Made by a program: the position numbers and the translations under genes. Below are positions 8,065-26,197 of a stretch of DNA of 26,814 nt, piece by piece. The notes below the pieces were generated by a model. The model was given only the letters and a program-made list of their open reading frames with translations, ran no database searches and was not told the origin of the DNA. The stretch is from a virus: positions 1-26,814 of the IMG/VR virus record IMGVR_UViG_3300005577_000074. One strand, 5' to 3'. How positions within the stretch are numbered: position 1 is the first letter of the stretch; each line of letters opens with the position of its first letter.

Positions 8065-8886
8065 CTACGCCGGCAGCTCGATCACGCGGCCGATCGGGTT
8101 CGTCGGATGGTTCGTGTAGTCCGTCTTCACCTGCGCGATCATGTTGAGCGGCGTGTTTTCATTCCCCGAAGTGATCAGCGGAAGCGCGCCGTTCGGACGA
8201 ATCGCGGTGAGCCACCAGTCCCACATGAGCCGCGGTCCGTTGGCCGGATCGCCGATGAACCGGATCGCGCATTCGACCGTCGAGATGGTGCCGATGTCGA
8301 ACTGCTTTCCGAGGCCGCCCGCGTACGCGGTCGGCGTGTAGCTCACCTTGAGCGTGTCGCCCGTCGCGATGCTGACCGCGCCCGGCAAGAGCCGAATCAC
8401 GCCGACATTCGTGTCGTCGATCGTGTAGTCGACGCCCGCCGTGAGCGACACGGTGCCGGTCGGACCGCCCTTGGCGGTGACGGCCGAGATCGGCCCGCGC
8501 TTGGCCAAGAGGTACGAGTCGCCGAGCACCGCGGCCGTCGTCACGACTTCGTCCACCACCGGCGTCGCGGCCTGCGTGCCTTCGTCGCTGATCGTCGCCT
8601 GGAGCCAGAGCCCCACGAGGAACGACGACCACTCGTCGAAGGCGAACTCGATCTGCGTGTTGCGGCGCAGCAAGAGATCCGCAGCCAGCGCGCGGTAGCG
8701 CGTCCGCGATTCGAACTTCTGGAATCGCTCGTCCGAGTTCGTCGGCTGGACGATCGTAGCGTTCCCCGCATCGCGGTAGCCGGTGAGGAGCCCCGTGACG
8801 GGGTCCTTCTGGTTGATCTCGACGATGCCCGCGCCAATCATGTAGAGGCGCGAGTCGTTGATGAGACTCATATCGACGGGCGGCAT
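8065..8886 (-). CDS. Major tail (tube) protein
   Basis: The 273-residue product is beta-rich, with an N-terminal part (SLINDSRLYMIGAGIVEINQ) and regular alternation of hydrophobic residues. Around residues 110-180 repeated short strands with Gly/Thr turns (TGTVSLTAGVDYTIDDTN, LPGAVSIATGDTLKVSYT) look like an added Ig-like or bacterial beta module. Location after the tail terminator candidate and before the frameshifted chaperones is the conserved place for the tube protein. GAGGA lies eight bases before ATG 8886. A strong stem-loop (7952-7996) follows the gene, as expected where a high-copy product is set apart from lower-copy genes downstream. The assignment rests on order and composition more than on a precise motif. 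Confidence 0.82.
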   Translation of the reverse strand: MPPVDMSLINDSRLYMIGAGIVEINQKDPVTGLLTGYRDAGNATIVQPTNSDERFQKFESRTRYRALAADLLLRRNTQIEFAFDEWSSFLVGLWLQATISDEGTQAATPVVDEVVTTAAVLGDSYLLAKRGPISAVTAKGGPTGTVSLTAGVDYTIDDTNVGVIRLLPGAVSIATGDTLKVSYTPTAYAGGLGKQFDIGTISTVECAIRFIGDPANGPRLMWDWWLTAIRPNGALPLITSGNENTPLNMIAQVKTDYTNHPTNPIGRVIELPA

Positions 8887-24963: not shown

Positions 24964-25230
24964 TTACTCGCGTGAGAGGGTGGAACTGCGGTGCTGCGGG
25001 GGCTCGTGTGTGGCTTTTCGTGCGATGCCGTCGGCCCACTCGGCGACGTTCGCGTCGGTCGATCGGAGAGGAATGTCCGGGCGATAGCTGTCGTCCTTCG
25101 CCGTGCGCGGGTTCGCGAGCGCGCCGCCGATGCCGACTTCGAGGCCGCACTTGGCGCAGACAAACTCACGCTCGCCGACACATGGCACGTCACACATCGG
25201 GACGAAGTCGTGCACGCAGCGGTCGGTCAT
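24964..25230 (-). CDS. 88-residue cysteine-rich small protein
   Basis: I choose ATG 25230 (MTDRCVHDFVPMCDVPCVGE), which overlaps the stop of the STAS gene as ATGA. Cysteines at 5, 13, 17, 25 and 28 with H7 lie within 24 residues (C.H.....C...C.......C..C), which can make one or two zinc sites. The remaining part is polar and disordered (ANPRTAKDDSYRPDIP, then KATHEPPQHRSSTLSRE). GAGG lies ten bases upstream. It may partner the adjacent STAS protein, but that is only proximity. Confidence 0.6.
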   Translation of the reverse strand: MTDRCVHDFVPMCDVPCVGEREFVCAKCGLEVGIGGALANPRTAKDDSYRPDIPLRSTDANVAEWADGIARKATHEPPQHRSSTLSRE

Positions 25231-25610
25231 CGACGTGCGCCCTCGGCGATCACGAATCGCCTTGCCATGCCTGTCTGCTCCAACGTCGCCAGGAGGTCGG
25301 GGTCCGCACCCTCGATTGCCAGAGCCCCACCCGCGCGCCGTGCCGCATTCGCGATCGATAAGAGCACGCCCAGCCCGTTCGAATCCACCCAGCCACCGGC
25401 ACTCAAGTCGACGGCCAAGAACACATGCGACCGCGCGATGGCGTCGAGCGCTTTGGTCTTGAGCACTTTCCCGTTCCCGGCGTTGAGATTCGCCGTGACG
25501 TGGAACCGGACCGAGATGCCGGGACGATCGTCCTCGGGCGTGCACTCGGTGGCGTGGATCCCGAGCTGGACCCGTTCGTGATCCGCGACGGAGTAGGCGG
25601 CGTGTTTCAT
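25227..25610 (-). CDS. STAS-domain protein, anti-sigma-factor-antagonist type
   Basis: The 127-residue product from ATG 25610 has the second half of a STAS domain in good form: HVFLAVDLSAGGWVDSNGLG with the D-S-x-G-L motif at 76-80 (S77 would be the phosphorylated serine in SpoIIAA/RsbV proteins), then a helix (LLSIANAARRAGG), a strand (LAIEGADPDL) and the end (EQTGMARRFVI). The first half is less typical, with ISVRFHVTANLNAGNGKVLK in place of the usual strand-Gly-x-LD segment, and has an extra 30 residues in front. In bacteria such proteins free sigma factors by binding anti-sigma kinases. Here it stands in a phage early block, overlapping the loader and a cysteine-rich gene (ATGA on both sides). 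Confidence 0.75.
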   Translation of the reverse strand: MKHAAYSVADHERVQLGIHATECTPEDDRPGISVRFHVTANLNAGNGKVLKTKALDAIARSHVFLAVDLSAGGWVDSNGLGVLLSIANAARRAGGALAIEGADPDLLATLEQTGMARRFVIAEGARR

Positions 25611-26197
25611 CGCGCACCGCCGGCGGCAATGCGCTTCGACGGCTCGACGCCGAGCTTCGCCGCGGTCGCATTCGTGAGCGCTTCGACCTGCGCGCTTGCC
25701 GATGCTAACGCGAGCTGCGCGGCCTGCTCCGACTCCGCGGTCGCACACGTCGCCTCGTACGCCTGGACGAATCGCTTGCGAAGCCACGGGAGTTCCGACT
25801 CGAGCGGATTCGAGAAGTCTCGGAACCCGCCGGCCGCGCGGAATGCGCGCACCGTGTTGGCGCCGAGCCTCTGGATGTCCGGCATGCGCTGCGCGAAGTC
25901 GGGGCTGTGCACGTACCGACCCGCGATCGCGAGCACGCGCTCGAAGGCTTCGCCGGCAGACAGTTCGGGCTCCTCGACGGGCGCGATCAGCTCGACGAGT
26001 TGCTTGGGAGACGGCCAGTTCCGGTACTCGGCGCTCCACGTGTGAAACGCCAACGCCGTCGCGGCGACGAATTGCTGCGTCGTCAGCATGTCGGAGAGTT
26101 GCGTGTAATACTCCCGAAACACCGGCGCCTCGAGCTCGCGCCCGATGCGACCGGCGAGCAACCCCATGCGCTGCGCGAAAATCTCCTTGTCGATCAT
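25607..26197 (-). CDS. Replicative helicase loader candidate
   Basis: The 196-residue product from ATG 26197 (MIDKEIFAQRMGLLAGRIGR) is helical. The segment FREYYTQLSDMLTTQQF followed by ALAFHTWSAEYRNWPSPKQL (about 27-67) resembles phage helicase loader proteins, where a Y-x2-L...F...A...W....FP.P..L pattern marks the N-terminal domain. It is followed by helices (AGEAFERVLAIAGRYVH) and an Ala-rich end. It lies three bases after the initiator-like gene, the common pairing of initiator and loader in lambda- and SPP1-like replication modules. The assignment rests on pattern and order; I see no ATPase motif. Confidence 0.6.
   Translation of the reverse strand: MIDKEIFAQRMGLLAGRIGRELEAPVFREYYTQLSDMLTTQQFVAATALAFHTWSAEYRNWPSPKQLVELIAPVEEPELSAGEAFERVLAIAGRYVHSPDFAQRMPDIQRLGANTVRAFRAAGGFRDFSNPLESELPWLRKRFVQAYEATCATAESEQAAQLALASASAQVEALTNATAAKLGVEPSKRIAAGGAR

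Follow-up and report, generated by a model that had tools for sequence, protein, structure and literature searches.

A STAS-domain protein shared by two sister phages, in which conservation lies away from the phosphoswitch serine

The STAS fold is used by bacteria as an 'anti-anti-sigma' switch. A gene for such a protein in a phage raises the question of whether the switch itself has been borrowed, or the fold put to another use. The gene considered here lies in a stretch of 26,814 nucleotides of viral DNA (IMG/VR record IMGVR_UViG_3300005577_000074), referred to below as the window. The original prediction held that its product carries a phosphorylatable DSxGL motif and could bind a host anti-sigma kinase so as to shift host transcription during infection. 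The relevant features of the window are these:

25227..25610, minus strand: STAS-domain-only gene, 127 aa, ATG to TGA (from translation, Pfam, AF2/Foldseek and orthologs)
25518..25610, minus strand: residues 1-31, with an N-terminal lead that contains helix 8-16, then strand 1 and the long loop to strand 2; strongly conserved between both phages
25482..25493, minus strand: A40-N41-L42-N43, where RsbV/SpoIIAA have a G-E-(I/L)-D docking loop; the same in both phages
25371..25385, minus strand: residues 76-80, the DS77NGL phosphosite motif, to which TRAGF of the L014 ortholog aligns
25607..26197, minus strand: upstream 196-aa gene for a replication-side protein, in ATGA overlap with the STAS gene; its ortholog precedes the STAS gene in L014
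26201..26812, minus strand: DUF1376 / 'primosomal protein' gene (Pfam PF07120, 4.6e-7; phrog_9327, 7.8e-9), which runs past the window end (289 aa in G001)
24964..25230, minus strand: downstream 88-aa gene with CxxC-type cysteines, in ATGA overlap with the STAS gene; not adjoining the STAS gene in L014
19842..21392, minus strand: terminase large subunit, a phage hallmark, 92% identical in L014
22457..23020, minus strand: RuvC-like Holliday junction resolvase; the start may be 23011

The STAS gene occupies exactly the coordinates first given for it. Its product matches Pfam STAS (PF01740) over residues 30-120 with E=7.6e-11 and 42.2 bits against a cut-off of 22.6, and STAS_2 with E=6.6e-8. An AlphaFold2 model, for which the input was two phage sequences only, has a pLDDT of 80.6, a pTM of 0.75 and the STAS order of elements: strand 18-22, strand 34-38, helix 44-59, strand 64-68, helix 77-92, strand 96-100, helix 104-113 and strand 120-122. 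The best Foldseek match of this model is RsbV (6m36; E=7e-6, TMt 0.81), followed by SpoIIAA, TM1081/TM1442 and further antagonists with TM values of 0.6-0.8. The profile score above the curated cut-off and the predicted fold place the protein in PF01740, and the fold check proposed for the original prediction thus gave the STAS fold. About 30 extra residues had been noted in a first half of the domain described as atypical. The additions are real, consisting of a lead of some 16 residues before strand 1 (helix 8-16) and a longer loop between strands 1 and 2 (residues 23-33), and it is to these that the atypical appearance reduces. The GC content and codon-position composition of the gene resemble those of the other genes of the phage. 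A chance open reading frame is ruled out by the Pfam match, the fold, the ortholog and the codon pattern. The gene is a genuine phage-borne STAS gene within a replication-side block.

The same soil phage is present in two more IMG/VR contigs: G001 (56,399 bp), in which the window is 99.985% identical, and G002 (22,349 bp), 100% identical where compared. The STAS protein is 100% identical in both. G001, classed as linear, begins and ends with the same 110 bp in direct repeat (L006:1-110 and the end of L008), which points to a complete genome or a circular one; the genome is probably complete. The phage encodes terminase, head and tail proteins, a helicase, a methyltransferase, the RuvC-like resolvase and a primosomal-type protein. 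Its tail genes resemble those of siphophages, mostly with Gram-negative hosts; for host prediction, no tRNA was found in the phage and no close genome match was found. Among the Pfam families detected (E<=1e-3) in the 78 phage proteins there was none for a GHKL kinase, a PP2C phosphatase or a sigma factor, and no phage-encoded partner kinase was found. The overlaps reported for the STAS gene are present: it shares an ATGA with each neighbour, the upstream 196-aa gene and the downstream cysteine-rich gene. The upstream gene had been named as a helicase loader, which is at most a putative role: it matched no loader family, only DUF6475 weakly and PHROGs of unknown function, and the structure model of its product is of low confidence and without a fold match.

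A sister phage, L014 (11.8 kb), encodes a 132-aa STAS ortholog that is 54% identical to the window protein and matches Pfam at 3e-10 and 40.2 bits. The terminases of the two phages are 92% identical, with little else alignable as DNA. In L014 the STAS gene again follows a 196-aa gene with an ATGA overlap, the two upstream proteins being about 31% identical. The gene after it differs from that of the window and is HD-like. This gene (L014:2770-3435), lying directly after the STAS gene, encodes 222 aa that look like a membrane protein and match an HD domain weakly. Since the upstream gene is the same and the downstream genes differ, the upstream gene and the STAS gene have been kept as a pair amid turnover. 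Because the ortholog follows the same upstream gene, the STAS gene is no one-off host fragment. A fragment unique to one genome, or contamination, is ruled out by the complete-looking genome with its 110-bp end repeat, the three assemblies and the sister phage.

The two phage proteins are conserved unevenly. Identities number 49/69 over residues 1-69 and 20/58 over residues 70-127 (Fisher p=7e-5), and within the STAS domain alone the N-terminal half is 71% identical and the half containing the phosphosite 38%. For comparison, bacterial STAS proteins were used, a background from one phylum that was reached by chance, favours high-scoring canonical proteins and yields pairs that are not independent, so that all numbers drawn from it serve as a guide and not as global frequencies: the N-minus-C identity difference is +0.33 for the phage pair, against a mean of -0.16 and a maximum of +0.05 in 367 bacterial pairs of 35-70% identity. 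Identity in the phosphosite window is 30% for the phage pair, against a mean of 84% among these pairs. At the level of sequence, constraint in the phage pair is inverted relative to all 367. Estimates of dN/dS, which involve few sites, high dS and two distinct sequences, either of which may be the derived one, are about 0.24 in residues 1-31, 0.86 in residues 70-84 and 0.47 across the whole protein.

The half that diverges contains the motif on which the original prediction was built. The window protein has D76-S77-N78-G79-L80, its S77 aligns with the serines that are phosphorylated in RsbV (S56) and SpoIIAA (S58), and in the model S77 is predicted to start the second long helix, at the position of RsbV S56. 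The aromatic residue at -3 is also intact. In L014 the aligned stretch is ATRAGFD in place of VDSNGLG, with Arg for the serine and Thr for the aspartate; Ser or Thr occupies this position in 32/33 bacterial STAS proteins. The serine of DSxGL is therefore not kept among the orthologs, whilst S77 may yet be phosphorylated in the window phage, where the motif is intact.

The surface through which RsbV meets its kinase is altered in both phages. RsbV residues D23, Y53, S56, R84/R87 and I91 touch RsbW, and D23 has a docking role (PMC7340262). The RsbV/SpoIIAA counterparts of two acidic SypA residues, among them the neighbour of D23, help binding (PMC10120452). Both acidic docking positions are Asn in the window protein and in L014, a combination found in 0/33 of the bacterial proteins, and the basic and hydrophobic alpha3 contact residues (the R87 and I91 positions in RsbV) are lost in both phages. 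The RsbV contact residues (acidic 21/23, basic 87 and hydrophobic 91, in RsbV numbering) are accordingly missing. Of six kinase-contact features the window protein retains two and L014 one, compared with at least four in 31/33 bacterial STAS proteins, a set with less than 60% mutual identity. Scores against NCBIfam TIGR00377 (anti-sigma antagonist) are 36.8 bits for the window protein and 35.8 for L014, with a cut-off of 53.45. The phage protein belongs to the STAS domain family; on phosphosite conservation, contact residues and NCBIfam score it is not classed as an anti-sigma factor antagonist, although it may work like one. It shares with RsbV, SpoIIAA and TM1442 a single STAS domain, the same fold, the position of the window serine and the aromatic at -3, but has Asn for the docking acids, no alpha3 contacts and Arg for Ser in L014, as well as an N-terminal lead and a long first loop, and no kinase or sigma operon partners were detected for it in the phage.

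The loss of the serine in L014 and of the kinase-contact residues in both phages makes a fixed binding module probable and a kinase-gated switch less likely. That the two sister phages have kept and adapted a STAS-fold protein as a phosphorylation-independent binding module is a proposal which, as a whole, we judge evenly balanced between right and wrong. From the gene arrangement, with its overlapping ATGA in both phages, translation of the STAS protein is probably coupled to that of the replication-side gene before it, and expression would be early. The conserved contact surface would be that of the N-terminal half (residues 4-69), away from the serine, and one partner would most likely be bound constitutively in early infection. 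A replication-side protein is a tentative candidate for this partner, slightly likelier than a host STAS-binding regulator. Somewhat short of an even chance, the two proteins may be the first members of a STAS family specific to phages, a non-phosphorylatable module, possibly coupled to replication, with its surface moved to the N-terminal half. If so, reuse of the STAS fold without phosphoserine would be a natural experiment on surfaces beyond the phosphoswitch, and the phage protein a candidate for control of host sigma or replication factors.

The main rival to a binding module of this kind is a constitutive anti-anti-sigma decoy, in which a poorly phosphorylatable or non-phosphorylatable STAS protein permanently holds a host RsbW/SpoIIAB-like anti-sigma factor through a remodelled surface and so frees a host sigma factor. 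The nearest solved relatives are RsbV, TM1442 and SpoIIAA, and lost phospho-control would lock the binding state. By analogy, phage spo0A homologs lack the receiver domain that takes host signals (PMC10294663), and phage sigma factors change host sporulation (PMC9429907). The phage-borne sigF/sigG homologs and truncated spo0A are likewise phage copies of host transcription regulators freed of host signals; they belong, however, to other protein families, and it is for the sigma factors that a function is known, in Bacillus. As the positions of D23, R87 and I91 are lost in both phages, the decoy is doubtful, with perhaps a minority share of the likelihood. The classical RsbV-type switch of the original prediction, in which S77 is phosphorylated by a host kinase that then lets go of its sigma factor, draws on the intact D76-S77-x-G-L motif and aromatic residue. 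It is improbable in view of the Ser and Asp not kept in L014, the Asn at both docking positions, the lost alpha3 contacts, the sub-threshold TIGR00377 score and a phage in which no kinase or phosphatase was found, the motif region being moreover the least conserved part between the phages. The further suggestion that the protein may escape its kinase fits these observations better than a phosphoswitch on an RsbW/SpoIIAB-type kinase.

Two readings appear less probable again. CapS is a STAS-wHTH repressor of immune operons and VapS a STAS antitoxin, and both govern anti-phage systems via phosphoserine (PMC13373217). By analogy, the phage protein might disturb host CapK/CapS or VapK/VapS-type immunity, for example through mixed dimers with the STAS repressor. 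The likeness is that of a STAS domain as regulator in phage-bacterium conflict. In contrast to CapS, the phage protein ends five residues past the last STAS strand with no C-terminal wHTH, and its neighbours are not kinases; in contrast to VapS, no PIN or GHKL family was among the Pfam families found in the phage, and no VapC-like toxin or VapK adjoins the gene. The phosphosite is not conserved, there is no repressed operon, and PADLOC gave no match for the protein; anti-defence is thus quite unlikely. A shade less likely still is a moron gene in decay, derived from a single acquisition of a bacterial STAS gene and losing function from its C-terminal half. Divergence is indeed rapid, 54% identity in STAS against 92% in terminase, and the motif region is near-neutral. 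Both copies are nevertheless intact, at 40-42 bits to Pfam STAS, and the N-terminal half remains 71% identical despite heavy gene turnover nearby. MlaB, the STAS subunit of the Mla lipid transporter, is also a short STAS-only protein, but the NCBIfam score is weak (16.1 bits against a cut-off of 90) and no Mla-type transporter family is listed in the phage.

Other phage STAS proteins were sought in the GenBank phage set, PHROGs and BFVD, which cover part of what viromes contain. There is no PHROG for the window protein; the GenBank phage collection gave no match at E<=10 except chance matches of 26% coverage, and BFVD no phage match at E<=1e-3. At the sensitivity used, these three collections showed no stand-alone STAS protein in any verified tailed phage. 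A SpoIIAA query of the GenBank phage set returned 17 records, all without annotation among those listed. Five were examined (MT835652.1, MT835480.1, OR845010.1, MT837115.1 and MT835993.1), all of them 'UNVERIFIED' 'Bacteriophage' scaffolds, and reading of their ORFs revealed in 5/5 a STAS gene with GHKL-like and sigma-factor-like ORFs behind it. This is the gene order of bacterial spoIIA/sigB operons, so the five are probably bacterial DNA and likely represent contamination of the phage collection. A spirochaete match (L098) was spurious, with stops within the frame. No paper was found in the literature that identifies a phage STAS protein from its sequence as an anti-anti-sigma factor; in phage DLP4 a protein has been likened to an anti-anti-sigma protein by I-TASSER only.

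The N6/N4 DNA methyltransferase of the phage (L003:7495-8544), a neighbour of the STAS gene, has at least 598 relatives among viral contigs, of which the 80 kept, own contigs of this phage aside, are 68-78% identical. In the flanks examined of these approximately 80 soil-type phage loci, no STAS gene was found. Outside the window, two adjacent genes run against nearly all the others (L006:7595-8407 and 8404-8844, minus strand), one for an IrrE/M78-like peptidase and one for an HTH repressor. The pair resembles ImmA/ImmR or CapP/CapH (PADLOC capP, E=9.7e-7) and suggests DNA-damage-responsive lysogeny control. Taken with the repressor pair, a 352-aa protein (L003:4768-5826) with a weak integrase match (phrog_1, E=9.8e-6) hints at a temperate phage.
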